Shown here piece after piece: positions 9,194 through 45,764 of a stretch of 46,688 nt of DNA. The DNA lies in NCBI GenBank assembly GCA_023265175.1, contig JAHFUI010000006.1:1-46688 (forward strand). Reading direction: 5' to 3'. The stretch is from Acidobacteriota bacterium (GTDB taxonomy: Bacteria; Acidobacteriota; Vicinamibacteria; Vicinamibacterales; CAVVIG01). Numbering within the stretch: position 1 is the stretch's first letter; each line of letters opens with the position of its first letter. The notes under the pieces are model-generated. The model ran no database searches. It saw only the letters and a list, made by a program, of their open reading frames with translations, and was not told the DNA's origin. The translations under genes and the position numbers were made by a program.

Positions 9194-10747
9194 ATGCTGT
9201 CACGAGACTTGATTCGGCGGTACGGCTACTCCTGGTCGGTGGCCGCGTGTCTGGCGCTCCTGTGTGCGAGAGCCACGTTCGAGCCGACGCCGGTCAGCGC
9301 CGCTGCTTCCTGCGAGAGCCTCGCGTCGCTGGCGCTCCCGAACACGACGATCACGCTCGCCGAGTCGGTTCCCGCCGGCGGCTTCACACAACCTGGCGCG
9401 CGCGGCGGGCGCGGAGGCGTGGCGCAGAACGATCTTCCGGCATTCTGTCGCGTCGCCGCCACGCTGAAGCCATCGAGCGACTCCGACATCAAGATCGAGG
9501 TGTGGCTGCCGGCGTCGAACTGGAACGGGAAATTCCAGGCGGTCGGCAATGGGGGATGGAACGGCACGATCGGTTACCCGGCGATGATGACCGCGCTTCG
9601 GGCGGGCTACGCGACCAGCTCCACCGATACGGGTCACGTCGGCGGCAGCGCGGAGTTCGCGCTCGGCCATCCCGAGAAGGTGATCGACTTCGGCTACCGC
9701 GCCGTGCACGAGATGACCGTCAAGTCGAAGGGCATCATCGCCGCGTACTACGACAACCCCCTCAAGTACGCGTACTGGAACGGGTGCTCGGCGGGCGGAC
9801 GGCAGGCGATGAAGGAAGCGCAGAAGTTCCCGGCCGATTTCAACGGCATCATCGCCGGATCGCCGGGTCTCGACTGGAGCAGCCGCTCGGCGGGATCGAT
9901 GCGGATTGCGCAGGTGACCAGGGACGAGGCCGCGCGCGTGACGGCGGGCAAGGCGCAACTGATCCACAAGGCGGTGCTCGACGCGTGCGACGCTCTTGAC
10001 GGCATCAAGGACGGGGTCGTCGACGACCCGAAGCGCTGCAAGTTCGATCCGGGTGTGCTCGAGTGCAAGGGCGCAGACGAAGCGACGTGCCTGACGAAGG
10101 CGCAGGCGCAAACCGCGCGGATGATGTACATGTCGCCCGTGAACCCGAAAACGAAACGCGAGATCACCGGCCTCGAGCCGGGCAGCGAGCTCGGATGGAC
10201 CGACTTGGGGTGGTCGGCCGGGGCCCGCTCGGCCGGGCTCGATCAGTTCCGCTTCGTCGTGTTCAAAGATTCGAGCTGGGACGTGGACAAATTCAACTTC
10301 GAGACCGACGTCGTGCGGCTGGAAGAAGTCGACGACAACACGATCAACGCACTCGATCCGAACCTCAAGACGTTCTTCGACCGCGGCGGCAAGCTGATCC
10401 AGTATCACGGCTGGGCCGATCCGCAGATCTCGCCGGGCAACAGCGTCCAGTACTACAAGCGCGTCGCCGACACGAACGGAGGCGTCGCGAAAGTGCAGGC
10501 GTCGCACCGGTTGTTCATGGCCCCGGGCATGGCACATTGCGGCGGCGGAGAGGGACCCAACACGTTCGACATGGTGAGTGCGCTCGAGCAGTGGGTCGAG
10601 AAAGGCAAGGCCCCGGATCAGATCGTGGCATCGCACAGCACTCAAGGCAAGGTCGATCGGACGCGCCCCTTGTGCCCATACCCGCAGCTCGCGGCCTACA
10701 AAGGCACCGGCAGCACGGACGACGCGGCGAGCTTCGTGTGTAAATAG
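9194..10747 (+). CDS. Tannase/feruloyl esterase family protein, paralogue 1 (complete triad)
   Basis: Secreted esterase of 517 aa. The signal region ends near AAASCES, followed by the family start SLASLALPNTTITLAESVPAGGF and FCRVAATLKPSSDSDIKIEVWLP. The nucleophile motif GCSAGGRQ has Ser199 (codon at 9788) next to Cys198. The acid region is YHGWADPQISPG, and His448-Cys449 lie in GMAHCGGGEGP. The Cys-Ser and His-Cys pairs form the CS-D-HC arrangement known from tannases and feruloyl esterases, in which a disulfide ties the triad. Expected role: hydrolysis of galloyl or feruloyl esters of plant phenolics outside the cytoplasm. GGGAG about 9 nt upstream of the ATG supports the start. Two paralogues lie at 42422 and 44172. 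Confidence 0.9.
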   Translation: MLSRDLIRRYGYSWSVAACLALLCARATFEPTPVSAAASCESLASLALPNTTITLAESVPAGGFTQPGARGGRGGVAQNDLPAFCRVAATLKPSSDSDIKIEVWLPASNWNGKFQAVGNGGWNGTIGYPAMMTALRAGYATSSTDTGHVGGSAEFALGHPEKVIDFGYRAVHEMTVKSKGIIAAYYDNPLKYAYWNGCSAGGRQAMKEAQKFPADFNGIIAGSPGLDWSSRSAGSMRIAQVTRDEAARVTAGKAQLIHKAVLDACDALDGIKDGVVDDPKRCKFDPGVLECKGADEATCLTKAQAQTARMMYMSPVNPKTKREITGLEPGSELGWTDLGWSAGARSAGLDQFRFVVFKDSSWDVDKFNFETDVVRLEEVDDNTINALDPNLKTFFDRGGKLIQYHGWADPQISPGNSVQYYKRVADTNGGVAKVQASHRLFMAPGMAHCGGGEGPNTFDMVSALEQWVEKGKAPDQIVASHSTQGKVDRTRPLCPYPQLAAYKGTGSTDDAASFVCK

Positions 10748-20291: not shown

Positions 20292-20299
20292 CAATGATG

Positions 20300-20343
20300 T
20301 TCGACCGCTGAGTCAACACAAAGGACACGATGGACACAAAGGG
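20300..20343. repeat. Half copy (left flank plus left arm) of the ACCACAAAGGACAC element
   Basis: The sequence TTCGACCGCTGAGTCA (20300-20315, identical to 15421-15436) is followed by ACACAAAGGACACGATGG and ACACAAAGGG. No right arm follows. It lies 24 bp before the start of the next PQQ dehydrogenase gene, so that gene is read from its own leader. Confidence 0.8.
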
Positions 20344-20366
20344 AAACACTTGAAAGAGGCACATCG

Positions 20367-26979: not shown

Positions 26980-27990
26980 ATGACGCCCAGACGATTCGCC
27001 GCGCTGCTGATCGCTATCGTGATCATGTGTACGGTCCATGGTCACGCGCAACGACGAGGAGGCCCCGCGCCAGGACCGGCGCAGGAGATCACCAACATCA
27101 CGGGAGACTTGTACTTCGCGCGGACGATCAGCCACAGCACGGCATTCCTCGTCACCCCCGACGGCATCATTCTCGCCGATCCCATCAGCACGGAATTCGC
27201 CATGTGGCTCAAAGGGGAGCTGGATCGGCGCTTCGGCAAACCGGTGAAGTACGTCATCTACAGCCATTTCGATTTCGATCACGCGGAAGGCGGTGACGTC
27301 TTTGCGGCGACGGCGCAATTCATCGGCCACGAGAATATGAAGAAGAATCTCGACGGCAGGCTGCCCCGACAGCCGGGTGGCGCCGTCGACAAGAACGGGA
27401 ATGGCCGCCTCGAGCGCGACGAAGCCACGGGCGGGACCTTGGCCGCCTTCGATCGGCTCGATCGCAACCGCGACGGCTCGATCACGCCGCAGGAGCTCTA
27501 CGCGGACGTGCGCAGGCCCGATGTCACCTATGCCGATCGCAAGACCGTGACGCTGGGCGGCAAGACCGTTCAGTTGATTCACCCTGGAGTGAATCATTCG
27601 GACGATATGACGGTGCTGTATTTCCCGGCCGAGCGCGCCGTTTTCGAGGTCGACATCGTCTTTCCCAAGACCACGCCCGGGGTATGGGCCGACTACGATT
27701 GGACGCCTCTTCGGGACTGGATCGCGTCGATCAAGGCCATCGAGACGCTCGATTTCGATGTGGTGCTGCCGGGCCACGGCCGCCCTGGGACCAAGGCCGA
27801 CGTTGTGGCGAACCGTGAATTTCTCGAAGACGTGGCCGCGGCTGTTTCAAAGGGAATCGCTGACGGGAAGAGCCTCGACGAGCTGAAGCAGACGGTGACG
27901 CTCGACAAGTACAAGGACTGGCCGGGTTTCGCGACCGGCCGCGTCGCGCACATCGAAGCGGCGTACAACAACCTGCGCAACTACAAATGA
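26980..27990 (+). CDS. Secreted MBL-fold hydrolase with inserted EF-hand pair
   Basis: Protein of 336 aa with signal MTPRRFAALLIAIVIMCTVHGHAQ. MBL motifs: TPDGIILADP (near 60), SHFDFDHAEGG (metal motif HFDFDH at 96-101, HxDxDH rather than HxHxDH), LIHPGVNHSDDMTVLYFP (near 200), and LPGHGRPG. Between the metal motif and the second half lie two canonical 12-residue calcium loops: DKNGNGRLERDE (137-148) and DRNRDGSITPQE (161-172), both with Asp/Asn at positions 1, 3 and 5, Gly at 6, a hydrophobic at 8 and Glu at 12. Only 12 residues separate the loops, shorter than in calmodulin-type pairs. This implies Ca2+-dependent folding or activity outside the cell. Probable hydrolase, substrate unknown. 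It follows the TonB receptor by 54 bp and is likely co-transcribed. Confidence 0.85.
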   Translation: MTPRRFAALLIAIVIMCTVHGHAQRRGGPAPGPAQEITNITGDLYFARTISHSTAFLVTPDGIILADPISTEFAMWLKGELDRRFGKPVKYVIYSHFDFDHAEGGDVFAATAQFIGHENMKKNLDGRLPRQPGGAVDKNGNGRLERDEATGGTLAAFDRLDRNRDGSITPQELYADVRRPDVTYADRKTVTLGGKTVQLIHPGVNHSDDMTVLYFPAERAVFEVDIVFPKTTPGVWADYDWTPLRDWIASIKAIETLDFDVVLPGHGRPGTKADVVANREFLEDVAAAVSKGIADGKSLDELKQTVTLDKYKDWPGFATGRVAHIEAAYNNLRNYK

Positions 27991-28527: not shown

Positions 28528-28995
28528 TCAGTAATTGACGATCGCGGTGATCGTGTCGGTGTACGCGCCGGCGCTGACATCCTGACTGGCGGGAATGCGA
28601 CCGTAGATCGTCCGGACGTAGTTCTGGTTGTTGTTGGGATTCGCGGGTTGGACGCTTTGCGTGCCGCCCGTGCCGTCGCCCCAGATGACGCTTCTCGCGG
28701 CGTTCCGATAGAGGTTGTACGACATCGTGTCCGTTCCGTTGGTCATCGTCCGCGGATTGAACGTCGCGCTGCTCCCCTTGCTCAACGTGATCACAAGGTT
28801 GGTCGCGCTGCCGCTGCAGCGATAGGTGAGCGTTCCGGTGGAGTCGGTCGCTGGGGCGCCGAACACATCGTAGGCGCCAAAGCTGACCGCCGTCGTCGAG
28901 ATCGTGCACGACGCCGCTTCCGCGCGGGTCGCAGACAGGAGTGCCGCGACGATGACGCCGAGCACGACGACGATGGGGCGCGAAGGCTGATTCAT
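28528..28995 (-). CDS. Spore coat U domain protein (Csu-type fimbrial subunit, possibly tip adhesin)
   Basis: Exported 155-aa SCPU-domain protein. Signal: IVVVLGVIVAALLSATRAEA. The mature N-terminus ASCTISTTAVSFGAYDVFG with GTLTYRCSGSATN and C-terminal YTDTITAIVNY define the Csu pilin fold with its one disulfide. It diverges clearly from the tandem subunits at 32933-35971. Its position last in the operon, right behind the usher, suggests the tip adhesin or a minor subunit, as in other Csu loci. The start codon shares ATGA with the stop of the usher gene. Confidence 0.85.
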   Translation of the reverse strand: MNQPSRPIVVVLGVIVAALLSATRAEAASCTISTTAVSFGAYDVFGAPATDSTGTLTYRCSGSATNLVITLSKGSSATFNPRTMTNGTDTMSYNLYRNAARSVIWGDGTGGTQSVQPANPNNNQNYVRTIYGRIPASQDVSAGAYTDTITAIVNY

Positions 28996-31673: not shown

Positions 31674-32424
31674 GGCGTTCCTTCAGACTCGACGCGCCGA
31701 CCTGGACTTCGACCGACAGCGCCGTAATCTTCGTGCACTCCGGCGACGGCAGCTTCAATTCGTACGCGCGCACGCCGCCGGCCAGGATGTACCAGCCCTC
31801 CACCTGTTTATCGAGGACGACCTCGCCGGCGCCGTTCATCCCGCGCACGCGCACCGACTGCGGCACGAAGTGCACCGTGCCGGTGTTGCTGACGCCGAAG
31901 GTGAACACCCCGTTCTTGACGGCCAGGTCGCGCAGGCCGCCCGTGGCCTGTGTCTTGGCGGGCTGCATGAAGATCGGCACGCCCATCTTCGTCAGCACCC
32001 GGACCGACGACTGCGTGGTGCCCGGCGCCTGCGGCGGCAGCTCCTCGACGAAGATGCGATAGGTCTTCTCAGCGGGGGCGAACGCCGTCGCGGCGCCGAC
32101 GCGGACCTTCCGCTCCTCTTTCGGCGCCAGCGTGAGAAGGCTCGGGAAGAACACGATGTCTTGCGTGGGCTGGAGCTTCATCTCGCCCTGAGGGCTCTGA
32201 TCCCACGTGAAGACGGTCAACTGAAAGCGCAGCGTCTCATCGCTCTCGTTACGCAGCGTCAGGAGCGCGCTCGTGCTCTTCGGCGTCAAAAAGATCTGCG
32301 TGGGATTGACCGTGAACGCGCTCGCCATCGCCGGCCGCGGCGCGCACAGGACGAGCATTGTGACGAGCGCCGCGATCCAGCGCACGCTCGTCGCGTCAGA
32401 ATTCGATGGCAATCGTGGCCGCAT
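31642..32424 (-). CDS. Periplasmic fimbrial chaperone (PapD/CsuC-like)
   Basis: Chaperone of 260 aa. The signal ends ...APRPAMASA. The two immunoglobulin-like domains show PTQIFLTPKSTSALLTLRNE, the FFPSLLTLAPKEERKVRVG G1-type strand with alternating hydrophobics, RIFVEELPP, and a second domain (PIFMQPAKT ... VSNTGTVHFVPQSVRVRG). It donates a strand to subunits before they reach the usher. A GTG at 32385 would give a shorter n-region; the ATG at 32424 overlaps the preceding subunit gene by 29 bp. Tight overlaps on both sides indicate strictly coupled translation of subunit, chaperone and usher. Confidence 0.85.
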   Translation of the reverse strand: MRPRLPSNSDATSVRWIAALVTMLVLCAPRPAMASAFTVNPTQIFLTPKSTSALLTLRNESDETLRFQLTVFTWDQSPQGEMKLQPTQDIVFFPSLLTLAPKEERKVRVGAATAFAPAEKTYRIFVEELPPQAPGTTQSSVRVLTKMGVPIFMQPAKTQATGGLRDLAVKNGVFTFGVSNTGTVHFVPQSVRVRGMNGAGEVVLDKQVEGWYILAGGVRAYELKLPSPECTKITALSVEVQVGASSLKERLETPPAACNP

Positions 32425-32899
32425 CGCCAATGGATTCCGCCGGAGTCCCGTTGAAAACGGACGCATAGGCTTTGAACTCCCTTGCCGGGGTCAACCCGAG
32501 CGCACGAATGAATGCCGCGGCGGCCGGGCCGCCGCACGCCGTCGCCCACGCGCCGTCGAGCGGGACGGTTTCGCAGTCCGAGCGGGCCGCGCCCAGTTGA
32601 AGCGTGACCGACTGCGCCGTGTCCCAGGTACATACCGCGATAACCGCGCCGACGACCGCCGGACCGGGAGCACCAACGGTGCGGTACATGTCGATGGCGC
32701 TCATCGTGGTGGTGATGGTGCAGCGAGGCGGCACGCTGACGTTGTTTAACATCGCCACCGCAAAATTGGCTGGGGTCTGCGCCGACGCTGAGCGTACCAC
32801 ATCTGTCGCGCCGCTGAGGACGACGAGGCAGAGTCCCAGCGCAGCGGTCATGACGCGTGTCGCACGTCCGACGTGCGGTCTCTTCAAAGGACGAGTCAA
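32396..32899 (-). CDS. Csu-type subunit, divergent spore coat U-like protein
   Basis: Exported 167-aa protein. The signal MTAALGLCLVVLSGATDVVRSASAQ is preceded by a basic stretch if translation begins at TTG 32899; ATG 32851 is the alternative. Mature features: VPPRCTITTTMSAIDMYRTV and AVIAVCTWDTAQSVTLQLG (the conserved Cys pair), an extra pair (SDCETV ... ATACGG), and a terminal ATIAIEF strand in place of VNF. It fits the Csu subunit family (CsuA/B-like) but is clearly distinct from the four tandem copies upstream. Located directly before the chaperone gene, with a 29-bp overlap. Confidence 0.7.
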   Translation of the reverse strand: MTRPLKRPHVGRATRVMTAALGLCLVVLSGATDVVRSASAQTPANFAVAMLNNVSVPPRCTITTTMSAIDMYRTVGAPGPAVVGAVIAVCTWDTAQSVTLQLGAARSDCETVPLDGAWATACGGPAAAAFIRALGLTPAREFKAYASVFNGTPAESIGDAATIAIEF

Positions 32900-33551: not shown

Positions 33552-34058
33552 TTAGAAGTTCACCGTGGCCGTCACGGTGTCCGCGTAGCTGCCGGCCGGC
33601 GAGTCCTGGTTGCTGGCGACGCGGCCGTAGGCCGTGAAGGCGCGCGCGGCTTTCGACGGCGCCGCCGCGGGCGTCTCGACATCGGCGCCGGTGCCCCAGA
33701 CCGTGGTGCGCCCGCTGTCCTGGTAGATCTCGTAGGTGAGGTAATTGCTCGAGCCGTCGGTCAGCCGCCGGGTGCTGCCCGTGGCGTTGATGCCAAGGTT
33801 GAGCGCGATGGTGGTCGCCGCGCCTTTGGTGCAGGCGATTGTCACCGTGCCGGTGCCGTCAAGGTTGCTCGCCGCGTTGGCCACGACCGGGTCGTAGGCG
33901 CCGAAGGCGAGGGCCGCCGTGCTGATCGTGCAGTTGTTGCTGATGCTGGCGCTCGACGCCAGCGTGGTGGCGGTCGAACCCGCGTGCACTGCGGTTCCCA
34001 CCAGTCCCACCAGTCCGAGTACCGCCGCCGCCGTTGCCGTCCGCGTTGTGCGTCGCAT
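33552..34058 (-). CDS. Spore coat U subunit, type Y (copy C)
   Basis: 168-aa subunit. The start ATG at 34058 is fixed by GAGGAG 7 nt upstream; a TTG at 34073 is part of that ribosome site. The signal region is AAAVLGLVGLVGTAVHAG. The mature part SISNNCTISTAALAFGAYDP ... GTVTIACTKGAATTIALNLG resembles type X but has IACTKG, EIYQDSGRTTVWGTGADVET and PSKAARAFTAYGRV as type-specific blocks. It is very close to copy D (34843). An 8-bp stem-loop (34077-34095) stands just before its ribosome site. Confidence 0.88.
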   Translation of the reverse strand: MRRTTRTATAAAVLGLVGLVGTAVHAGSTATTLASSASISNNCTISTAALAFGAYDPVVANAASNLDGTGTVTIACTKGAATTIALNLGINATGSTRRLTDGSSNYLTYEIYQDSGRTTVWGTGADVETPAAAPSKAARAFTAYGRVASNQDSPAGSYADTVTATVNF

Positions 34059-34076
34059 GTCTGTTCTCCTCAATAC

Positions 34077-34095
34077 CCTCCGCCTGTGGCGGAGG
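34077..34095 (-). promoter_or_regulatory. Conserved 5'-leader hairpin of a type Y subunit gene (copy C)
   Basis: CCTCCGCC-TGT-GGCGGAGG is a perfect 8-bp stem with a 3-nt loop, 18 nt upstream of the ATG and just before GAGGAG. The same stem with a changed loop (AGT) and the surrounding leader are found before copy D. It could modulate ribosome access or mark a processing or termination point between subunit genes. Confidence 0.55.
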
Positions 34096-34157
34096 TGGGC
34101 ACGAAAGTGACCGTCAGTTACCCGCCGCGTCGTGCCGACGGTGGGACTGCATGAAGC

Positions 34158-34178
34158 TTAGAAATTCACAGCCGCCGC
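34158..34178 (-). pseudogene. 3' tail of a lost type X subunit gene
   Basis: On the minus strand this reads ...GCGGCTGTGAATTTCTAA, that is ...AAVNF and a stop, followed by leader sequence homologous to that downstream of copy B. Its stop lies about 100 bp from the ATG of copy C, as the stop of copy B lies about 100 bp from the ATG of copy D. Only about five to seven codons of the subunit remain; the rest appears replaced by the HTH gene and AT-richer DNA. Confidence 0.45.
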
Positions 34179-34417
34179 GCGTCCTCGCTGCGTCCTGCCG
34201 CTAAACCTGCAGTGGCAGGGCGCTGCTGCTCGAGCCACGCATCCAAATCGCTTCGGCGAATCCGCCATTGGCGTCCGACTCGCACGGCCGGGAGCTCGCC
34301 GGATTTGATCAAACGATAAACGGTGCACGACTTGACCTCCAGATATACGAAGACCTCATCCGTCGCGAGGAAGGCTGGATGATTATGATGTCTTGTAAAG
34401 TTCGTTGATATGTCCAC
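34166..34417 (-). CDS. Excisionase-type helix-turn-helix DNA-binding protein
   Basis: 83-aa protein. FLATDEVFVYLEVKSCTVYR then LIKSGELPAVRVGRQWRIRR then SDLDAWL is a complete winged HTH_17/excisionase domain (helix-turn-helix followed by the VGRQWR wing). It starts with GTG at 34417. Such proteins act as recombination directionality factors or small regulators. It lies on the same strand as the fimbrial genes but in DNA of lower GC, and its 3' end overlaps the VNF tail of a former subunit gene. There is no complete recombinase beside it, so it is either a leftover of a mobile segment or a regulator captured by the locus. Confidence 0.8.
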   Translation of the reverse strand: MDISTNFTRHHNHPAFLATDEVFVYLEVKSCTVYRLIKSGELPAVRVGRQWRIRRSDLDAWLEQQRPATAGLAAGRSEDARRL

Positions 34418-34800
34418 GCTAGCACCATTGTAAATACGTTAATAGGACAACAAGAGACACTAATCTAATCTTGCGCGGCCTGTCTGTCAACAGCTTTTTT
34501 CGCTGCGCGTCTTGCCGCTACCATGCGTTCGATGGTGGAGAGTTTGACGTGTCAGGTTGGCTTCCATGTGACCGAGTAAAAGCAATCCTAGTACCATCCA
34601 ATAAGCACTATATCTTACAGGTACTTGCAGGAAATATCTGCCGTGAAACGACAAAAGCCATGGCCATGCCGCGATTGCTCCTACAAAAAATAGAGATGAG
34701 GGTGCGCCCACCGCGGGCCGAGACATGGCCAAGAAAGAGGCAGAGGAAAAGAGAAGGATTCAACAAAGCGCCACAGCGAGGGCCGCCGGCTCACTGAGCC
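34418..34800. other. Lower-GC intergenic segment in the fimbrial array
   Basis: About 380 bp, visibly richer in A and T than the flanking subunit genes (for example GTAAATACGTTAATAGGAC near 34431 and AGCACTATATCTTACAGG near 34605). I find no gene with a convincing ribosome site or family. An 81-codon minus frame contains LLLGHMEANLTRQTL but lacks recombinase motifs. The segment includes the likely promoter of the HTH gene and fills the space where the tandem array predicts a type X subunit gene. Confidence 0.5.
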
Positions 34801-34818
34801 CCGCCGCCGATGCGGCGG
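34801..34818 (-). terminator. GC-rich hairpin downstream of type Y copy D
   Basis: CCGCCGC-CGAT-GCGGCGG lies about 25 nt after the stop of the 34843 gene, at the same place as the hairpin at 33511-33527 after copy C. The flanking ACGCGTGCTTAGAAGTT is conserved too. The lack of a strong T-run makes termination uncertain. Confidence 0.4.
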
Positions 34819-34842
34819 CGGGAGCCCGCTGCGAACGCGTGC

Positions 34843-35349
34843 TTAGAAGTTGACGGTCGCCGTGACGGTGTCGGCGTAGCTGCCGGCCGGTGAGTCCTGG
34901 TTGCTGGTCACGCGGCCGTAGGCCGTGAAGGCGCGCGCGGCTTTCGACGGCGCCGCCGCGGGCGTCTCGACATCGGCGCCGGTGCCCCAGACCGTGGTGC
35001 GCCCGCTGTCCTGGTAGATCTCGTAGGTGAGGTAATTGCTCGAGCCGTCGGTGAGCCGCCGCGTGCTGCCCGAGGCATTGCTGCCCAGGTCGAGCGCGAT
35101 GGTGGTCGCCGCGCCCTTGGTGCAGGCGATGGTCACCGTGCCGGTGCCGTCAAGGTTGCTCGCCGCGTTGGCTACGACCGGGTCGTAGGCGCCGAAGGCG
35201 AGGGCCGCCGTGCTGATCGTGCAGTTGTTGCTGATGCTGGCGCTGCTGGCCAGACTCGCCGTCGCCGACCCCGCGCGCAGGTGCGCCGCCGTGCCGACCA
35301 AGCCCGCCACTACGCCAAGCACCGCCGCCGTTCGCATTCCGTGTCGCAT
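34843..35349 (-). CDS. Spore coat U subunit, type Y (copy D)
   Basis: 168-aa Csu subunit nearly identical to copy C in its mature part; by eye the visible changes there are in NLGINATGS/DLGSNASGS and GRVAS/GRVTS. The signal is AAVLGVVAGLVGTAAHLRAG. Start ATG at 35349 with GAGGAG 7 nt upstream; in-frame sequence beyond it is the leader. The Cys pair (NNCTIST, IACTKG) and terminal VTATVNF are intact. It follows copy B by 100 bp and is followed by the interrupted segment. Confidence 0.88.
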   Translation of the reverse strand: MRHGMRTAAVLGVVAGLVGTAAHLRAGSATASLASSASISNNCTISTAALAFGAYDPVVANAASNLDGTGTVTIACTKGAATTIALDLGSNASGSTRRLTDGSSNYLTYEIYQDSGRTTVWGTGADVETPAAAPSKAARAFTAYGRVTSNQDSPAGSYADTVTATVNF

Positions 35350-35367
35350 GTCCGTTCTCCTCACTAC

Positions 35368-35386
35368 CCTCCGCCAGTGGCGGAGG
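35368..35386 (-). promoter_or_regulatory. Conserved 5'-leader hairpin of a type Y subunit gene (copy D)
   Basis: CCTCCGCC-AGT-GGCGGAGG, the same 8-bp stem as at 34077-34095 with a different loop, 18 nt upstream of the ATG. The leader around it (GTGAGGAGAACGGAC, TTTCGTG, GACGGGTA) is shared with copy C, so leader and gene were duplicated as one unit. Confidence 0.55.
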
Positions 35387-35449
35387 TGGTCACGAAAGTT
35401 ACCGACAGATACCCGTCGCGTCATGCGACGGTGAGAGCAAGTGCCGACA

Positions 35450-35971
35450 CTAGAAGTTCACGGTCGCCGTGACCGTGTCGGCGTAGCTGCCCGCCGGGAC
35501 GTCCTGGTTGCTGGTGACCCGGCCGTAGACCGTGAAATTGCGCGCCGTCTTAGAGGGGGCCGCCGCTGGCGTCAACAGCGCCGCGCCGGAATTGCCCCAG
35601 ACCGTCGTCCGTCCGCTGTCCTGATACATTTCGTAGGTCAGGTAATTGCTCGATCCATCCGTCAGGCGTCGCGTGCTGCCGGACGCGTTGCTGCCCAGGT
35701 TGAGCCCGATGGTCGACGCCGCGCCCTTGGTGCAGGTGATCGTCACCGTGCCGGTGCTATCGAGGTTGCTCGCGGCGTTGGCCACGACCGGGTCGTAGGC
35801 CCCAAAGGCCAGCGCCGCCGTGCTGATCGTGCAGTTGTTGGCGACCGAGGCGCTCACACTGAGGCTCGCGCTGGCCGACGCCGCATCCGATCGGACGCTG
35901 GTGACGCAGACGGCGCCGGCCGCTGCCGCGCCCGCCAGAATTGCCGTGAGGATCCGCGTCCGTGTCTCCAT
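35450..35971 (-). CDS. Spore coat U subunit, type X (copy B)
   Basis: 173-aa Csu subunit, first structural gene of the fimbrial array. Signal LAGAAAAGAVCVTSVRSDA; mature core as in copy A with NNCTISTAALAFGAYDP, TITCTKGAAS, TVWGNSGAALLTPAAAPSK and terminal VTATVNF. The ATG at 35971 follows the stop of the GGDEF-EAL gene by only 7 bp, so it must be read from the same transcript, although no clear ribosome site is seen in the end of that gene. Confidence 0.88.
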   Translation of the reverse strand: METRTRILTAILAGAAAAGAVCVTSVRSDAASASASLSVSASVANNCTISTAALAFGAYDPVVANAASNLDSTGTVTITCTKGAASTIGLNLGSNASGSTRRLTDGSSNYLTYEMYQDSGRTTVWGNSGAALLTPAAAPSKTARNFTVYGRVTSNQDVPAGSYADTVTATVNF

Positions 35972-35978
35972 GACCGCA

Positions 35979-38819
35979 CTATGCCGCCGGAAACGCCTGG
36001 CCAAGAAGGCCTGCCGCAACGACCGGAAAGCGATTCAGCTCGGAGGTCGGCAGCCGGTTGCCGTCAGCCTGGTCGACGGCCCATCCCGTTCCGGCTTCCG
36101 CCAGGAACGCTTCGGCCGCTCGCGCCGACAGCGGCCTGGAGAAGAAGAAGCCCTGGGCCTGAGCGCACCCGAGTCGCACCAGTTCGTCCATCTGGCCCCT
36201 CGTCTCGACCCCTTCCGCGATGACGTCCGTGCCGAGCGTTTTCGCCAGCGCGACGATGCTCTCGACGATGGCCGGCTGATTGGTTTCTCCCGCCAAGCTG
36301 GCGACAAACGATCGATCGATCTTCAGCGTGTCGACCGGGAAGCGGTGCAGATAGCTCAAGGAAGAGAATCCGGTCCCGAAATCGTCCAGATAGACCTTCA
36401 CGCCGAGCGCGCGCAGATCGCGCAGCACGAGGGCCGCGCCTTCCGGGTTCGCCATCAACGTGGTTTCCGTAATCTCGAGACGCAGATCGCCCGCGCGCAT
36501 GCCGGAATCTCGCACGGCGCGCTCGACGATTTTCAGGAAATCGGGTTGGGTCAGTTGCCGCGCCGACACGTTCACCGTGATGCCGAGCATCGGACCCGTC
36601 GGGAACTGCGTGCGCCACGCCGACATCTGGCGACACGCTTCCTGAAGGATCCATGCGCCGAGCGGTTCAATCAGCCCGGTTTCCTCGGCGAGGGGAATGA
36701 ACTCGGCGGGCGAGACGTAGCGTCCGCCCCGTTGCCACCGCAGCAAGGCTTCAAACCCGGTCCACCGCTGGGACGGAAGCGACACGATCGGCTGATAGTG
36801 CAGCGCGAACTCGCCACGTTCGATCGCGCGGCGGAGATCGTTCTCGAGGCTCAGCCGATCCACCGCCGTGGTGTGCATGGACGTGTCGAACAACTCGTGT
36901 CGCGCCTTGCCGAGCGCTTTCGCGCGGTACATAGCCGTGTCGGCGTCGCGCATGATGTGTTCGGCCCGCGTGTAGCCCGTCACACTGAGGGCGATGCCGA
37001 TGCTGGCGGAGGCGAACACTTCATGGCCGTTGAGGGCGAACGGCGCCCGCAGCGCGTCGTGAACGCGCTGGGCCACGACGCTCGCCTGACCCACGTCACC
37101 GAGATCGTTGAGCAGAATCGTGAACTCATCGCCGCCCAACCGGGCGATCACGTCGCCGTCGCGAAGGTGCGACTCGATGCGTCGTGAGAAGGCGACGAGC
37201 AGCTCATCGCCGATCAGGTGTCCGAGGCTGTCGTTGACGTTCTTGAACCGGTCGAGATCCAGGAACAAGACCGCGAACAAGTGCTCCGGGTGACGCTCGG
37301 CGCGGTCGAGGACCTGCCCGAGCAGCTCCATGAAGAGCGCCCGATTGGGGAGACTCGTCAACGGATCGTGGAGCGCCGCGTGACGCAGCTGCTCCTGGAC
37401 GGCGGTCCGGTCGGTGATGTCGGTCTGGGAGCCGGCGATCCGCGTGGCGTGGCCATCCGCTTTCCGCACCGCCACTCCGCGACAGAGGACCCAGCGGTAG
37501 GTGCCGTCCCGGTGACGGATCCGATGTTCGTGCTCGAAGTGCGCCGACTCGCCGGCGACATGCGCCTCGAGGGCGGCCTTCAGCGGTTCCAGATCATCGC
37601 GGTGAACCCGCTGAAACCATTCATCGGGACCAGTCCGGACGTCGTCGGCCGGCAGTCCCAGCATGCTGTTCCACCGTGGAGAAAAGTAAATCTCGCCGCG
37701 GGTGAGATCCCAATCCCACATCCCGTCGTTGGCTCCGGCGGCGGCGAGGGCGTAGCGCTCTTCGCTTTGCTTGAGGGCCGCTTCGGCCTCAGCGCGGTCC
37801 GTGATGTCGTTCCAGAACACCGTGACGCCGGCCACGAACGGGAAGACACGCACCTGCAGGATCCGGCGATGGCCGGCGCGGTGCAGGGCGAAGTGTTCGA
37901 GGTCGTCCGCATCGCCGCTCTGGAAGACGGCCTCGATCACCTGCGGCAGCGTCGTGCCGGCCAGCTGCGGCACCGCCTCGATGAGGGGCCGGCCCAGCAC
38001 GCGCTCTCGCGGGATGCCGGTGATCCGCTCGACTGCGTCGTTCCACAGCGCGACGCGGCCGTCGCGCTGAATCACCGCCATGCCTTCATTCAACGATTCG
38101 ATGACTTCCCGGTGGCGATGCTCGTCTTCCAGCCGTCCGGCGTACATGCGGTAGGCCCGATACGTGATGTACACGGGCGCGACGGCCAACGGCAGTAGTC
38201 CCCACATCTGGTGGACGATCACTTCGACGATGACGACGGCAACTCCGGCGCCCACGAAGTAGCTCGGCGCGCCCCAGAGGAAGTCACGCTGCCAGACCCG
38301 CCGCATGGGTTGATAGGTCGAGAGCGCCACCGCGATCGCGATGGCGCCGCTGTTGACCAGGAAGTAGGTAATCACGGCGACTGCCACCGAAGCGGCGTTG
38401 CCCGGCCACACCAGATGGCCGAAGGTGCCGCCCGACACGCGGTAGGCCAGGCCGGCGGCCTGCACCGTGACGACGAGGGCGCTGACGCTGAAGAGCGTTC
38501 GATACAGCGGATTCTTATGCGCGACTTTGGTCGTCGCCTGGCTCACGGCGCCGACCGCCGTGATCAGCATCGCCTGCTGCGGACCGAAGAGCAGCAGCGC
38601 AGCGAAATCGACGACGAACGACAGCGACATCGTCGCGCGGTTCTTCGTCGTGGGCAGCTGCAGCTTGAGGGTCGATGTCAGAATGGTGGCCAGCGCGAGC
38701 GTGAGGAACACCGGAAGTTGCCCGAGGGCGGGCAGCTTGGCCAGCACAACGAGGAGTGCGGCACCGGCCAGAACCACGGTTGCGACATAGGCGCGGGCCG
38801 GCAGCGGCAGCTTCTTCAT
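35979..38819 (-). CDS. Membrane PAS-PAS-GGDEF-EAL cyclic-di-GMP enzyme
   Basis: Protein of 946 aa. Residues 1-225 form several transmembrane helices (for example VVLAGAALLVVLA, VAVITYFLVNSGAIAIAVAL, AGVAVVIVEVIV). Two PAS domains follow (about 238-345 and 355-475, the second with a PAC end GSQTDITDR). The GGDEF domain (about 482-640) has intact GGDEF (562-566) and an inhibitory site R553xxD556. The EAL domain (about 660-915) keeps E690-A-L, NVSARQL, EITETTLM, DDFGTGFSSLSYL, LKIDRSF and VIAEGVET. All catalytic residues are present, so it may both make and degrade c-di-GMP, with PAS and membrane input deciding the balance. Its stop is 7 bp before the first fimbrial subunit gene. In bacteria, c-di-GMP commonly controls fimbriae and attachment. 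Confidence 0.92.
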   Translation of the reverse strand: MKKLPLPARAYVATVVLAGAALLVVLAKLPALGQLPVFLTLALATILTSTLKLQLPTTKNRATMSLSFVVDFAALLLFGPQQAMLITAVGAVSQATTKVAHKNPLYRTLFSVSALVVTVQAAGLAYRVSGGTFGHLVWPGNAASVAVAVITYFLVNSGAIAIAVALSTYQPMRRVWQRDFLWGAPSYFVGAGVAVVIVEVIVHQMWGLLPLAVAPVYITYRAYRMYAGRLEDEHRHREVIESLNEGMAVIQRDGRVALWNDAVERITGIPRERVLGRPLIEAVPQLAGTTLPQVIEAVFQSGDADDLEHFALHRAGHRRILQVRVFPFVAGVTVFWNDITDRAEAEAALKQSEERYALAAAGANDGMWDWDLTRGEIYFSPRWNSMLGLPADDVRTGPDEWFQRVHRDDLEPLKAALEAHVAGESAHFEHEHRIRHRDGTYRWVLCRGVAVRKADGHATRIAGSQTDITDRTAVQEQLRHAALHDPLTSLPNRALFMELLGQVLDRAERHPEHLFAVLFLDLDRFKNVNDSLGHLIGDELLVAFSRRIESHLRDGDVIARLGGDEFTILLNDLGDVGQASVVAQRVHDALRAPFALNGHEVFASASIGIALSVTGYTRAEHIMRDADTAMYRAKALGKARHELFDTSMHTTAVDRLSLENDLRRAIERGEFALHYQPIVSLPSQRWTGFEALLRWQRGGRYVSPAEFIPLAEETGLIEPLGAWILQEACRQMSAWRTQFPTGPMLGITVNVSARQLTQPDFLKIVERAVRDSGMRAGDLRLEITETTLMANPEGAALVLRDLRALGVKVYLDDFGTGFSSLSYLHRFPVDTLKIDRSFVASLAGETNQPAIVESIVALAKTLGTDVIAEGVETRGQMDELVRLGCAQAQGFFFSRPLSARAAEAFLAEAGTGWAVDQADGNRLPTSELNRFPVVAAGLLGQAFPAA

Positions 38820-40056: not shown

Positions 40057-41988
40057 CTACGGCAGCGCGTAGACGACGAGCGCCTCGGAGCCGGCCGGAG
40101 CCGGATCGTCGAGCGCGCTGGCGCCGCCGGCGCTGATCGCCACGTACTGTTTGCCGTCCCTGCCCTGATACGTCACCGGCACTGCGTGCGCGCTCATGTC
40201 CAGCTTGGCGACCCACAATTCCTTGCCGCTCTTCGAGTCGAACGCGCGGAAGCGCTTGTCGTTGCTCGCCCCGATGAACACCAGCCCGCCCGCGGTGACG
40301 ATCGGACCGCCGAGATTCAGCCGCCCCGTTTTCTGCTTGGCCTCCGGCAGTTCCTCAGTGATCCCCAACGGCACCTTCCATGCGATCTCGCCCGTCCGCG
40401 CGTTGACGGCGACCAGATTGCCCCAAGGGGGTCGATTGCACAGCCAGCCGTGCTCGCCACCCATGATGTTGCCCGTGCGCGGATCGCCTTCCTTCCATTG
40501 AAAGCGCGAGGTCGGCCCGACGATAGAGTTCCGCCGATACGGACTGCGTCCGCCCTCCGGCGCCTTTTCCACCCAGCCGATGCTGGCTTCGTCATTCGTG
40601 TTCACGAACACGTAACCCATCGTCGGGTCGGCGGCGGTCCCTCCCCAGTTGGCGCCGCCAATCGATCCGGGGAAGAGGATCGTCGAAAACGGCTTCGCCC
40701 CCGCGTCACGATACACATAGGGCGAGAACGGACCCTCGTTATAGAAGCCGCCGCTTCGCTCGGCCAGCTCGCGGCAGAACTTGGCGTGCTCCGCGTTGGT
40801 ATCCGCGGCGGTGACGATGTCGTCGGCCCTGTATCCGACGCGCGCGATGGGCGGCGGCTTGACCGGAATGGGCTGCGTCGGCGAGCTCTTCTCGCCCGGC
40901 GCGCCGCTGGGCGGCACCGCTCGCTCCTCGATCCCGAACACCGGCTTTCCGGTGACGCGATCGAGGATGTACATGTAGCCGGTCTTGGCGGCGAGCGCGA
41001 GGATCGGCGTCCGTCGTCCGTTCACGGTGACGTCGAGGAGCGCCGGCGGCGACGGCAGATCGTAGTCCCAGAGATCGTGATGGACCGCCTGGAAGTACCA
41101 CTTGAGCGCGCCGGTTCCGGCATCGAGCGCCACGAGGGAGTTGCCGTACAGATCGTCGCCGAGGCGATCCCCGCCCCAATAGTCGTTGGGGCCGGGCGCT
41201 TCGATCGCGACGTAGAGGAGCCCTCGCTCGGCATCGAGCGTCTGCGAAAACGCCCAACTGTAAGTGCCGGGGCGATTCTTCCAACTGTCGGCCGCCCACG
41301 TCTTGTTCGCAGGGTCGCCGGGCTGCGCCACCGAATTGAATTCCCACGCCTTCGCGCCGGTCCGCGCATCGAAGGCGCGTACGCCGCCGGGCGATCCATT
41401 CGTGCCGAGGATCAACAGGTCCCGGTAAACGGTTGCCGCGGAGTTGTAGGGCGCCACCATGTCTACTTCGCCGTCTTTGCCGAAGCCGCCAGAGGGTTCG
41501 CCAGTGCCGGCCGTCAGCGCGATCAGCCGGCGCTCCGAGGTGAAGAAGATTCGCGCCGGAGCGCTTGCGTCGCCGGCCCAATACGCGACGCCGCGTCTGG
41601 ACGGAACGCCGTTCTTGACCTGATACCGCCACTTCTCGCGGCCGGTTTCCGGTTCGAGCGCAGCGACGTGATCCGACGCCGCGACGTACATCACGCCGCT
41701 TACCACGATCGGCGTGAATTCCGAACCGCCCGATAGCGAACCCGCCGTCCGATCGCGGCCCAGGGGATACGACCACGCTCGCGCGAGCGTCGCCACGTTG
41801 CCGGTGTTGATTTGCTTGAGCGGGGAGTAGCGCGTGCCGGCCAGATCGCGGTTGTACATTGGCCAGTCGCCCGCCGACTCCGCGCGGGGCGACGCTGAGC
41901 CCGCGGCTTTGTCAGCCTGCCCGTGAAGAACGGCGAACGCGACGGCCACGGCCAGAACCGCGCCTGCGGCCATCGATCGGACTGTCAT
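40057..41988 (-). CDS. PQQ-dependent dehydrogenase (membrane glucose dehydrogenase-like), paralogue 3
   Basis: Exported quinoprotein of 643 aa; signal MAAGAVLAVAVAFAVLHGQA. The start GDWPMYNRDLAGTRYSPLKQI and the docking repeats (ALEPETGREKWRYQ, AFDARTGAKAWEFNS, ALDAGTGALKWYFQ, AVNARTGEIAWKV, AFDSKSGKELWVAK) follow the same propeller plan as 16600 and 20367. The active-site block is HHDLWDYDLPSPP. It is less similar to those two than they are to each other and has a distinct AISAGGASALDDPAPAGSE tail. Likely a periplasmic sugar or alcohol oxidase feeding the respiratory chain. Divergent from the tannase at 42422. Confidence 0.88.
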   Translation of the reverse strand: MTVRSMAAGAVLAVAVAFAVLHGQADKAAGSASPRAESAGDWPMYNRDLAGTRYSPLKQINTGNVATLARAWSYPLGRDRTAGSLSGGSEFTPIVVSGVMYVAASDHVAALEPETGREKWRYQVKNGVPSRRGVAYWAGDASAPARIFFTSERRLIALTAGTGEPSGGFGKDGEVDMVAPYNSAATVYRDLLILGTNGSPGGVRAFDARTGAKAWEFNSVAQPGDPANKTWAADSWKNRPGTYSWAFSQTLDAERGLLYVAIEAPGPNDYWGGDRLGDDLYGNSLVALDAGTGALKWYFQAVHHDLWDYDLPSPPALLDVTVNGRRTPILALAAKTGYMYILDRVTGKPVFGIEERAVPPSGAPGEKSSPTQPIPVKPPPIARVGYRADDIVTAADTNAEHAKFCRELAERSGGFYNEGPFSPYVYRDAGAKPFSTILFPGSIGGANWGGTAADPTMGYVFVNTNDEASIGWVEKAPEGGRSPYRRNSIVGPTSRFQWKEGDPRTGNIMGGEHGWLCNRPPWGNLVAVNARTGEIAWKVPLGITEELPEAKQKTGRLNLGGPIVTAGGLVFIGASNDKRFRAFDSKSGKELWVAKLDMSAHAVPVTYQGRDGKQYVAISAGGASALDDPAPAGSEALVVYALP

Positions 41989-42421
41989 GTGTACCTCCCG
42001 CGCAGAACCATCCAGACATCTTCTAAGGCCCGAATCGTGACAGATGATATAAGTTTTTGCCGGCGCGCCTTAGAAGCTGTCTTAGGCCCCGCTTCGCGGG
42101 GCAACGGTGAAACATTGGCGTTTCTACAGCGAAGGTGCGCGTGGGCCGCCTTCCGTTCTCGACGGTTTGAGGCGCAGCTTCGCTGGGAGCCCGTCCGAGT
42201 ATGCCGAAACGGGCTCCTAGTAGGCGCGCCCCGCACGCGGTCATTCAAGATCATTGGCGTTCTTGCCGGCGAAGCCGATCTACTAGGAGCGTGTTCCGGT
42301 TTCTCAGACACGCTCCTAGCATCGCGGGTATTCTACTGTGAGCGGCGGCCACAATTTCATACAATACGGCTCCGTCGCCGTCTCCGACCATCCGTGTTCG
42401 GTGCACATGAGGAGAGAATCG
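41989..42421. other. Divergent intergenic region with two hairpins
   Basis: This 433-bp gap lies between the divergent PQQ dehydrogenase and tannase genes. I see no gene. It holds a 7-bp stem hairpin GCCCCGC-TTC-GCGGGGC (42086-42102), a GGCTCCTAGTAGG stretch (42210-42222), and the long hairpin at 42283-42319. Both promoters must lie here. ATGATATAAG near 42045 could be a -10 element for either strand; no consensus -35 is evident. Confidence 0.6.
42283..42319. repeat. 12-bp perfect inverted repeat CTAGGAGCGTGT
   Basis: CTAGGAGCGTGT (42283-42294) and ACACGCTCCTAG (42308-42319) are exact inverted copies with a 13-nt loop, about 100 bp upstream of the tannase ATG. The nearby GGCTCCTAG at 42210 repeats part of an arm. 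Possibly the remnant of a small REP-like unit or an operator. Confidence 0.7.
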
Positions 42422-44062
42422 ATGCGTCCAGCCACGCTCGCGGCGCTACTGAGTGTTCTCGTTCTTCGTGCCACGCCCGCCGCTGCGGCGTCGTGTGAGA
42501 ATCTCACCTCGTTGTCGTTGCCGAACACGACGATCACGGCCGCGCAGTTGGTCGCGGCCGGGGCGTACGTACCGCCCGCCCCGCCCGCAAGGGCCGGTGG
42601 ACCCCGCGCGGGCGGAGCGAACGCGCCCGTCGAGAATGGCCGCGCGGGCGCGCCGGCAGGACGGGCGGGTGGCGGCCAGGGTCGGGGCCCGCAGTTCGCC
42701 GATCTGCCCGCCTTCTGTCGCGTGAGCGCGACGCTGAAGCCGAGCAGCGACTCCGACATCAAGATTGAGCTCTGGATGCCGGCCTCCGGATGGAACGGCA
42801 AGTTCGTCGTGCCGGGCAACGGAGGCTTCGCCGGTGCGATCGCTCCCGCCGGTCTCGCCACCGCGCTTCGGAGCGGCTATGCGGCGGCGACGACCGACAC
42901 CGGGCATGAAGGCGGCAGCGGCAGCTTCATGCTCGATCATCCCGAGCGACTGACCGATTTCGCCGACAGAGCGATTCACGAGACGACGACCAGGAGCAAA
43001 GCGATCCTGACGGCGTTCTACGGCAACGGTCCAAAGCTGTCCTACTTCAACGGCTGCTCGACGGGCGGCCGGCAGGCCCTGACCGCCGCGCAGCGTTTCC
43101 CCGACGACTTCGACGGCATCGTTGCCGGCGCGCCGGCGATTTATGCGTCGCGCCAGTCGGCCGGACAGATTTGGATCTGGCAGGCGACGCACAAGGACGC
43201 GGCGAGTTACCTCACGCCGGACAAGTTGACCGTGCTTCACGACGCGGCGGTCGCCGCATGCGACGCCCTCGACGGCGTGAAAGACGGCGTGCTCGAAGAT
43301 CCCACGCGCTGCAAGTTCGATCCGAAAGTCGTGCAGTGCAAGGACGCGGACCCTTCAACAAGCTCAGGGTCGCCCCGAGCGCAGTCGAGGGGCGACGGCC
43401 CCGGCTGCCTGAGCGCCGCGCAGGTGGAAGCGGCGCGGAAGATTTACACGGGCGCGAAGAACCCGCGGACCGGCGAGCAGATCTTCTCGCCGCTGTTTCC
43501 CGGCAGCGAGCTGGGGTGGGCCTCATCGGCCGGCGCGCAACCGGTCGGCTACGCCCTGGATGTCTACCGGTATGTCGTCTTCAAGGACCCGAAATGGGAC
43601 CCGCTCGCGCTCGGCTACGACGCCGATATCGCCAGGGCTGACAAGGTTGTCGGTCAGCTCACGGCCATCGATCCCGATCTGACGAAGCTGCTGCGGCACG
43701 GGAAGCTGCTCATGTATGCGGGGTGGAGCGACCCGGGGATCCCGCCCGGCTATTTGCCCGAGTACTACAAGAACGTGCTGGCGAAGACGAACGTCAAGAA
43801 CGTGCGCGACGCGGTTCGTTTGTTCATGGTGCCCGGCATGGGGCACTGCGGCGGCGGCGATGGAACGAGCACGTTCGACATGCTCGGCGCACTGAATCAG
43901 TGGGTGGAGACCGGAAGGGCCCCGGGCTCCATCAACGCGTCACGTGTGAAGGACGGCGCGGTGGACCGCACCCGTCCGCTCTGCCCGTACCCGCAGGTGG
44001 CGACGTACAAAGGAAGCGGAAGCACCGGCGAGGCGGCGAACTTCGTTTGCAAAGCGCCCTGA
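42422..44062 (+). CDS. Tannase/feruloyl esterase family protein, paralogue 2, with in-frame repeat insertion
   Basis: Secreted esterase of 546 aa. The ATG at 42422 is preceded by AGGAGA about 6 nt upstream; signal LAALLSVLVLRATPAAA. After SCENLTSLSLPNTTITAAQL there is a Gly/Ala/Pro/Arg-rich stretch (about 55-95). The nucleophile motif GCSTGGRQ has Ser213 (codon at 43058) beside Cys212, and the His-Cys end reads GMGHCGGGDGTSTFD, so the CS-D-HC triad is complete. Within the family's KFDPxVxxC...C segment this copy has 15 extra residues (PSTSSGSPRAQSRGD and neighbours) encoded by a 45-bp palindromic repeat. Predicted to cleave plant phenolic esters. Confidence 0.9.
   Translation: MRPATLAALLSVLVLRATPAAAASCENLTSLSLPNTTITAAQLVAAGAYVPPAPPARAGGPRAGGANAPVENGRAGAPAGRAGGGQGRGPQFADLPAFCRVSATLKPSSDSDIKIELWMPASGWNGKFVVPGNGGFAGAIAPAGLATALRSGYAAATTDTGHEGGSGSFMLDHPERLTDFADRAIHETTTRSKAILTAFYGNGPKLSYFNGCSTGGRQALTAAQRFPDDFDGIVAGAPAIYASRQSAGQIWIWQATHKDAASYLTPDKLTVLHDAAVAACDALDGVKDGVLEDPTRCKFDPKVVQCKDADPSTSSGSPRAQSRGDGPGCLSAAQVEAARKIYTGAKNPRTGEQIFSPLFPGSELGWASSAGAQPVGYALDVYRYVVFKDPKWDPLALGYDADIARADKVVGQLTAIDPDLTKLLRHGKLLMYAGWSDPGIPPGYLPEYYKNVLAKTNVKNVRDAVRLFMVPGMGHCGGGDGTSTFDMLGALNQWVETGRAPGSINASRVKDGAVDRTRPLCPYPQVATYKGSGSTGEAANFVCKAP
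43351..43395. repeat. 45-bp palindromic repeat inserted in frame in the tannase gene
   Basis: CCCTTCAACAAGCTCAGGGT ... CGAGCGCAGTCGAGGGGCGA is an imperfect palindrome of the widespread type ending in TCGAAGGG/CCCTTCGAC. Relative to the two paralogues, which have seven residues between the two Cys of this segment, this copy has 22, exactly 15 codons more. Confidence 0.8.
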
Positions 44063-44065
44063 CAA

Positions 44066-44157
44066 CAATTGCAGGATGGCAGGATTGCAGAATGGCAGGA
44101 AGTAAAGTTCCTGCCTTCCCTTCCTGCAATCCTGCCATTCTGCAATTCTGCAATCTT
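44066..44157. repeat. GCAGGATG 8-bp-periodic inverted repeat between tannase genes
   Basis: The left arm has units GCAGGATG, GCAGGATT, GCAGAATG, GCAGGAAG (44071-44102). The right arm (about 44119-44157: TTCCTGCAATCCTGCCATTC then TGCAATTCTGCAATCTTG) is its inverted counterpart. It fills almost the whole gap between the two tannase genes and could form a long hairpin in the transcript. Confidence 0.85.
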
Positions 44158-44171: not shown

Positions 44172-45764
44172 ATGAGCAGGAAGCTTCTGCTGGTTTGCGT
44201 CCTGGCGCTGGCGGCGCTGTCCCTTCGTGCGCAACCGGCCGCCGCGGCGACGACGTGCGAGAACCTGACGATGTTGTCGCTGCCGAATACGACGATCACG
44301 CTGGCGCAGCCGGTCGCTGCGGGAGCGTTTACGCCACCACCAGCCCCGGCTCGCGGCGGAGCCGGCGGCGGCGCGCCCGCTGCCGCGCAGGCTGCTCCCG
44401 GACGGGGGAGAGGGCCGCAGTTTGGCGATCTGCCGGCTTTCTGCCGCGTGCAGGCGGCGTTGAAGCCGTCGAGCGATTCGGACATCAAGATGGAACTATG
44501 GATGCCGGTGGCCGCGAGCTGGAATGGCAAGCTGCGCGGGACGGGCAACGGAGGTCTGGGCGGCGGCGCCGCCGTCGGCGCGGGCGCGCTCGCGAACGGG
44601 GTCCGGCTTGGTTACGCGACGACCGGCAACAACACCGGCCACGAGGGCGACTCGCGCTACGCGATCGATCATCCCGAAAAGATCAAGGACTTCGGGTATC
44701 GTGCGGCCCATGAGATGACCGTCGCGGCGAAAGCGCTCATCAAGGCGTATTACGACAAGGGTCCCACCTATTCCGTGATGGCGGAAGGCGGCGGCGGCAC
44801 GATCGCGGCGCTCAGTTCGGCGCAGCGGTACCCCGAGGACTACGACGTCATTGCCGTCACGGGCATGTCGTCGTACCTGACGCGTCACACCTTCGGCCAG
44901 ATGTGGTACTGGCAGTCGACGCACAAGGACGCGGCGAGCTTCATCCCGCCGGATAAATACGCGGTCCTTCACGAGGCGGCGCTCAATCGGTGCGACGCGC
45001 TGGACGGCCTCAAGGACGGGATCATCGGTGACGTGGAGCACTGCAAGTTCGACCCTGGCGTGATCCAGTGCAAGGGCGCTGAAGCGCCGGCCTGCCTCAC
45101 GAGTCCGCAGGTCGACGCGGCGCGGAAGATTTACGCAGGTCCGATCAATTCGCGCACCAAACAGGAAATCTACTCGCCGATGTACCCGGGCAGCGAGCTC
45201 GGCTGGGGGCAACTGGCGGGCGGCGACACTCCGCTCGGCATTCCGGTGGAGTTCTTCAAGTACTTCGTGTTCAAGGATCCGAACTGGGATTACAAGACAC
45301 GTCCGGTGGATTTCGACACCGACACGGCCCTGGCCGACAAGCCGGACATCCAGCCGGTCAACGCCGTCGACCCCGATCTCAAGAAGTTCTTCGCGCGCGG
45401 CGGCAAGCTGCTGCTCGTGGACGGTTGGGCCGACACGGCCGTCCCGCCAAAGGTCGCGATCAACTACTACAAGAACGTCGTCTCGAAAACCGGCGCGAAG
45501 GCGGTGAAGGAATCGATGCGTTTCTTCATGGTGCCCGCGATGGGCCACGGCCCGGGCACCAACGGCGCGGAGAACATCAACTTCGACGCGCTCAGTGTGA
45601 TCGAATCGTGGAAGCAGACCGGGAAGGCGCCCGATCAGTTGATTGTCGATCACTACAAGAACGGCGTGCAGGTGGGGAAGCGGCTCGTGTGTCAGTACCC
45701 GCGGGTTGCGACATACAAGGGAAGCGGGAACACGGAGGATCCGGCGAGCTATACCTGCAAGTAG
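44172..45764 (+). CDS. Tannase/feruloyl esterase-fold protein, paralogue 3, nucleophile and disulfide cysteines missing
   Basis: Secreted protein of 530 aa; signal LLLVCVLALAALSLRAQPAAA, strong ribosome site AAGGGGGG. It aligns with paralogues 1 and 2 over the full length (TTCENLTMLSLPNTTITLAQ, KPSSDSDIKMELWMP, KFDPGVIQCKGAEAPACL). The nucleophile segment, where the others have NGCSxGGRQ, reads SVMAEGGGGTIAAL (about 201-214), with neither Cys nor Ser. The His end reads AMGHGPGTNG instead of GMxHCGGGEG, so the partner Cys is gone too. Asp (DGWADTAVPP) and His remain. The frame is intact and the gene does not look decayed. It is therefore probably a pseudo-esterase with a binding or regulatory role, or one using a different mechanism. 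Confidence 0.85.
   Translation: MSRKLLLVCVLALAALSLRAQPAAAATTCENLTMLSLPNTTITLAQPVAAGAFTPPPAPARGGAGGGAPAAAQAAPGRGRGPQFGDLPAFCRVQAALKPSSDSDIKMELWMPVAASWNGKLRGTGNGGLGGGAAVGAGALANGVRLGYATTGNNTGHEGDSRYAIDHPEKIKDFGYRAAHEMTVAAKALIKAYYDKGPTYSVMAEGGGGTIAALSSAQRYPEDYDVIAVTGMSSYLTRHTFGQMWYWQSTHKDAASFIPPDKYAVLHEAALNRCDALDGLKDGIIGDVEHCKFDPGVIQCKGAEAPACLTSPQVDAARKIYAGPINSRTKQEIYSPMYPGSELGWGQLAGGDTPLGIPVEFFKYFVFKDPNWDYKTRPVDFDTDTALADKPDIQPVNAVDPDLKKFFARGGKLLLVDGWADTAVPPKVAINYYKNVVSKTGAKAVKESMRFFMVPAMGHGPGTNGAENINFDALSVIESWKQTGKAPDQLIVDHYKNGVQVGKRLVCQYPRVATYKGSGNTEDPASYTCK

Follow-up and report, generated by a model that had tools for sequence, protein, structure and literature searches.

The closest described relatives of the protein reported here are the feruloyl esterases AoFaeB (PDB 3wmt), an A. 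oryzae esterase (6g21) and FoFaeC (8bhh), all of the Pfam family PF07519, and the MHETase of Ideonella sakaiensis (6qg9 and others). In the tannase family, a loop of the GNGG type has an oxyanion role (PMC6461665), and L235 of AoFaeB has been named as a residue around the catalytic triad that may position the substrate (PMC6461665). MHETase requires Ser225, and its S225A variant is inactive (PMC7568301). Variants of MHETase C224/C529 were insoluble or not expressed, and across 6,671 family sequences conservation of the ten disulfide cysteines is high (PMC7568301). The His of the HGW motif, equivalent to H488, is dispensable in MHETase (PMC6461665). Outside this family, non-catalytic α/β hydrolases are known. 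Neuroligins, gliotactin, glutactin, neurotactin and the C-domain of thyroglobulin have lost the triad, and their fold serves binding (PMC5943944). Within the open-access PMC literature, we found no paper on PF07519 proteins devoid of the catalytic Ser and none that joins tannase with pseudoenzyme.

The window, i.e. the whole stretch of 46,688 nucleotides of an Acidobacteriota genome analysed here, encodes such a Ser-less protein. It has in common with AoFaeB, 6g21 and FoFaeC the overall fold with its lid, four non-catalytic disulfide cysteine pairs, the calcium loop and the Asp and His of the triad. It differs from them by a Gly in place of the nucleophilic Ser, the absence of the active-site disulfide, a Glu in place of the elbow Gly and a His at the L235 position. 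Likewise, it shares family and fold with MHETase and matches its five-disulfide plan except for the active-site bond. The neuroligin-type proteins are a precedent in kind, as they too retained an esterase fold after triad loss, but they form another subfamily, are of animal origin and bind protein partners, and homology to them holds at the superfamily level only.

The window protein and its active site

The reading frame starts with ATG preceded by a G-rich Shine-Dalgarno-like stretch, and the product is probably secreted as judged from its N-terminus (Table 1). Its PF07519 match scores 288.6 bits (cut-off 29.8) and covers residues 92-530 and profile positions 2-490 of 490. The AF2 model (mean pLDDT 90.8, pTM 0.89) displays a complete fold in which, as in AoFaeB and MHETase, a large lid is inserted into an α/β hydrolase core. 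It superimposes on 3wmt over 471 residues with Z 41.3 and an rmsd of 2.3; the best matches among solved structures are 3wmt, 6g21 and 8bhh (Z about 41), followed by MHETase (Z about 36). The whole genome contains 17 PF07519 matches. A horizontally acquired oddity was considered and rejected, since the GC3 of the gene (0.83) equals that of its paralogues.

A first-pass annotation, whose span 44772-45560 reaches from the nucleophile elbow through the His loop, had stated that the nucleophile and both cysteines of the active-site disulfide are missing while Asp and His persist in a long and clean frame. Our alignments bear this out for the full-length protein, which has no internal stop. The segment SVMAEGGGGTIAAL, starting at residue 201, can be aligned gap-free with SYFNGCSTGGRQAL in P2, the upstream paralogue. 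Here, GCSTGGRQ of P2 is opposite AEGGGGTIA (residues 204-212), and further downstream HCGGGDG is opposite HGPGTNG (459-465). G207 aligns to Ser203 of 3wmt, and in the AF2 model the strand 200-207 ends at residue 207 with a helix from 209 onwards, which identifies position 207 as the nucleophile elbow. Measured against the CS-D-HC motif, Ser (G207) and both cysteines (G206 and G460) are absent, whereas D421 and H459 are present. Thus, a functional catalytic triad is lacking, with no conserved substitute for the nucleophile at positions 208-211. A displaced Ser was rejected, as position 210 is variably S, G, T or A across the Ser-less proteins. The eight other family cysteines (C29, C91, C274, C291, C300, C308, C507 and C529) are all present and would be expected to pair into four disulfides; the calcium-loop residues D275, D278 and D282 are likewise in place.

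Table 1. Coordinates of the Ser-less gene, its motifs and its paralogues in the window
Feature	Position	Strand	Basis
Third PF07519 protein, intact CS-D-HC, outside the Ser-less clade	9194..10747	+	alignment, tree
Upstream paralogue P2, intact GCSTGGRQ / D / HC	42338..44062	+	PF07519 375 bits; clade support 100/99
Ser-less tannase-family protein, 530 aa	44172..45764	+	ORF; Pfam PF07519; AF2; structure match to 3wmt
Signal-peptide-like N-terminus MSRKLLLVCVLALAALSLRAQPAAAA	44172..44255	+	sequence; predicted helix 2-17
Oxyanion-hole loop GNGG (residues 125-128), kept; G128 aligns to AoFaeB G125	44544..44555	+	alignment; PMC6461665
Former nucleophile elbow AEGGGGT; Ser to G207 (44790), Cys to G206 (44787), elbow Gly to E205 (44784)	44781..44801	+	alignment
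Clade signature on first lid helix, T237-R238-H239...Q243-x-W245-x-W247	44880..44912	+	alignment
Calcium-binding-type loop CDALDGLKDGI, kept	44991..45023	+	alignment
GWAD loop, D421 (45432) kept; preceding family His (HGW) to D417	45423..45434	+	alignment
His loop HGPGTNG; H459 kept, disulfide Cys to G460	45546..45566	+	alignment

The Ser-less clade

Related genomes and contigs were searched and the hits aligned, which yielded at least 17 Ser-less homologues and, with the window protein, a set of 18. The homologues are one further protein of the same genome (L104, contig C268); L119, L098 and L198 from G013 (RIFCSPLOWO2_12 Acidobacteria bacterium, MELA01000152.1); L101 and L103 from G159; L199 from G154; L195, identical with the Bryobacterales palsa_144 locus L019; L202, L193 and L194 from G552 (Candidatus Sulfopaludibacter); and L188, L189, L190, L191, L192 and L178 from genomes in the order of L019. 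They span at least 11 mostly metagenome-assembled genomes from two groups of Acidobacteriota, the Vicinamibacteria and the order to which the Bryobacterales locus belongs. Judged by best-scoring matches only, at least 4 of 193 genomes in the window's class carry such a gene. No match exceeded the cut-off in the 11 genomes of another order, that of G453, and the best matches in a plasmid collection were general tannases of at most 37% identity. The Ser-less proteins are thus a small conserved family in soil Acidobacteria with at least 18 members known here.

Position 207 is Gly in 18/18 Ser-less proteins and Ser in all 125 Ser-containing relatives; because the two sets are defined by this very column, what carries information is the invariable choice of Gly as the alternative and the clustering of the respective rows in the tree. 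After removal of the motif columns from the alignment, the 18 proteins and P2 formed one clade with a support of 100/99. P2 is the only Ser-containing sequence found inside it. Monophyly of the Ser-less proteins is compatible with the data (p-AU 0.30), and the tree leaves P2 as either sister or nested. The double variant is not confined to the window: a G013 protein with 66% identity carries the same combination, VVAQGGGGT and HGPGTNG. Its recurrence in an independent genome at this distance excludes a sequencing error.

The closest Ser-less trio, L188/L189/L190, has dN/dS values (NG86, own script) of 0.078-0.085, as compared to 0.065-0.104 for Ser-containing neighbour genes in the same three genomes. 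Values of 0.24-0.28, at near-saturated dS, were obtained for the window protein with L119 and L178, and Ser-containing control pairs of like divergence gave 0.20-0.28. Purifying selection on the Ser-less proteins is hence as strong as on their Ser-containing neighbours. These ratios rule out decay and, with the conserved clade, uphold the earlier proposal of selection.

The proposal that the three residues were lost as a set is probably wrong. Both active-site cysteines are retained in 14 of the 18 Ser-less proteins (CGGG...HC; for example ECGGGS...HCGGGEG in L019), and on account of these intermediates we rejected a simultaneous loss. The pair is missing in the window protein, L119 and L178, which make up one sub-clade (100/99), and separately in L103. 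Most likely, to judge from this distribution, Ser was lost first and the cysteine pair later, at least twice within the clade. Conversely, absence of the cysteines is no sign of Ser loss. Like the window protein, L042 from G094 (GGSTGG...HM) and L008-L010 from the window's own genome (GTSQGG...HG) are devoid of both cysteines, but these two disulfide-free lineages keep the catalytic Ser and lie outside the Ser-less clade. Among 149 full-length relatives there is no case of a single remaining cysteine. The correlated loss at distant sites noted in the first-pass annotation is, for the Cys sites, the ordinary co-loss of disulfide partners, and it is not tied to the loss of Ser. The only entry with a single active-site Cys is the broken-frame fragment L110 (L110:1180-2720, contig C20 of G362), a tannase gene that is broken into two overlapping frames and lies beside an intact one. 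This copy seems either to be in true decay or to result from an assembly error.

Fifty columns are fixed in the Ser-containing relatives; 37 of them remain fixed in the Ser-less set and 13 are relaxed. Nine of the relaxed columns belong to active-site loops, namely the oxyanion loop (125, 127), the elbow (206, 207, 209, 210) and the His loop (456, 460, 463), a concentration with a Fisher p of 1.4e-4 for loops picked post hoc and rows that are not independent. Position 128 of the oxyanion loop is F, V or L in 7/18 proteins, and the His of HGW is kept in none of the 18. The triad residues Asp421 (16/18) and His459 (17/18) are largely kept. So is the calcium loop, with D275 and D278 in all 18 proteins and D282 in 16; together with the non-catalytic disulfide cysteines, its Asp residues are conserved in 16-18 of 18.

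New residues have become nearly fixed as well. H239 occurs in 15/18 Ser-less proteins versus 2 of about 131 Ser-containing ones, and W247 in 18/18 versus 10/125; Q243 (16/18) and G231 (17/18) are similarly frequent, and position 205 is Glu or Gln in 13/18. P2 carries Q243, W245 and W247 but Q239, which fits its place as a Ser-containing branch of the clade. As counted from the Ser, H239 aligns to L235 of AoFaeB. H239 might face into the pocket; with W247 and Q243, it has become fixed at the end of the lid that borders the substrate cleft.

Gene setting and possible roles

P2 and the Ser-less window protein are 53% identical, and the third PF07519 protein of the window shows 46-47% identity. 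A clear series of P2 orthologues was not found in Vicinamibacteria, where the best non-self match reached 60%. At four loci (the window, L104, L195 and L202), PQQ dehydrogenases are encoded next to the Ser-less gene or close to it. Further loci feature TonB-type outer-membrane proteins, dienelactone-hydrolase-like genes and metallo-β-lactamase-fold genes. Such a setting would suit the secreted handling of plant-derived phenolics, without naming a ligand.

In agreement with the first-pass annotation, a non-esterase function is the best reading of the Ser loss. We favour, with a probability of about 0.6, a conserved secreted pseudo-esterase that binds a phenolic or aromatic-type ligand, the ligand class being suggested by the family to which the proteins belong. 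This reading draws on the invariant Gly, the well-supported clade, the low dN/dS, the relaxed active-site loops, the complete AF2 fold, the inactivity of MHETase S225A (PMC7568301) and the PQQ dehydrogenase setting. Replacement of Ser by Gly would have come first, once or a few times, followed by loss of the active-site disulfide in the sub-branch of the window protein, a loss that might do no harm when there is no longer a Ser to be kept in register with His. Ester hydrolysis via the acyl-Ser mechanism would no longer be performed. Instead, the old pocket might bind a ligand of the phenolic or aromatic-ester type outside the cytoplasm. The protein would then serve as a binder or carrier next to the numerous active tannases and PQQ dehydrogenases that these soil bacteria possess. 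Retention of Asp421 and His459 speaks against a pure binding role, yet most other family-invariant residues are kept too. These same two residues underlie the main rival, itself unlikely, in which a phenolic substrate would be converted in a different reaction by the Asp421-His459 dyad together with the newly acquired His239 and Glu/Gln205, be it of the lyase type, a cofactor-free oxygenation or a metal-assisted hydrolysis, to name examples. The frequency of H239 at the AoFaeB L235 position and of Glu or Gln at 205 would fit such a chemistry. However, both dyad residues are replaced in L199 (by N and E) and the Asp in L104 (by Glu), H239 is missing in L198, L103 and L199, and positions 208-211 offer no conserved substitute nucleophile. 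That the whole clade is a new catalytic type on the tannase fold, using Asp-His, H239 and Glu/Gln205 for a non-esterase reaction on extracellular plant phenolics, would be more unlikely still.

A non-catalytic partner of the active upstream paralogue, acting as part of a hetero-oligomer, as stabiliser or as decoy, had also been suggested, and we regard this as decidedly improbable. Its basis in the window stands, as the two genes adjoin on the same strand with a gap of 109 bp. Moreover, a Ser-containing tannase directly follows the Ser-less gene in L188, L189 and L190 and is one gene away in L195. These five, however, compare with 12 of 17 loci where the stretches around the Ser-less gene contain no Ser-containing tannase, which makes a fixed partnership unlikely. 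In addition, the neighbour in the trio stems from another tannase branch than P2, Ser-containing tannases also stand in tandem with each other (contig C69), and a hairpin repeated genome-wide separates the two window genes. Very improbable is a residual esterase, in which water activated by His and Asp would hydrolyse activated aryl esters without an acyl-Ser. The dyad and pocket are kept, as is the oxyanion Gly in the window protein, but elbow and oxyanion glycines are relaxed across the clade and the Ser-to-Ala exchange inactivated MHETase. Finally, the lost catalytic residues might point to a pseudogene or a sequencing error. This is practically ruled out, since a second genome shares the motifs and dN/dS is as low as in Ser-containing relatives, and neither the clean full-length frame nor the four intact disulfide pairs and calcium loop suggest decay.

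The pseudo-esterase reading has consequences for annotation. A family search labels all Ser-less proteins tannase/feruloyl esterase, and they may be miscounted as plant-polymer-degrading enzymes in soil Acidobacteria, which they probably are not. The clade is, in addition, a natural source of proteins that lack the active-site disulfide, a bond that MHETase could not lose without becoming insoluble, and it might constitute a stepwise natural record, Ser first and then the Cys pair, of a hydrolase turning into something else.

Several further features were noted. A strong palindrome at 44067-44147 (-56.6 kcal/mol as RNA, z -7.8) lies between P2 and the Ser-less gene. With similar copies at roughly 15 or more sites of the genome, it belongs to the REP/MITE-like repeats and may double as a terminator or processing hairpin. 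On contig C268, L104:3516-5123 encodes the second Ser-less PF07519 protein of this genome, with the triad Asp replaced by Glu, and adjoins two PQQ-dehydrogenase genes, one of which (L104:6237-8540) is fused to a dienelactone-hydrolase domain. The window itself holds four PQQ-type β-propeller dehydrogenase genes, three of them in tandem (16600-22433 and 40057-41988), accompanied by metallo-β-lactamase-fold and GMC oxidoreductase genes. A metallo-β-lactamase-fold protein with an inserted EF-hand match is encoded at 26980-27990. Judging by their sequences, three similar small secreted proteins in tandem (33552-36019), near an usher-like gene (28992-31673) and a chaperone-like gene (31642-32466), look like a chaperone-usher pilus set of the spore-coat-U type.
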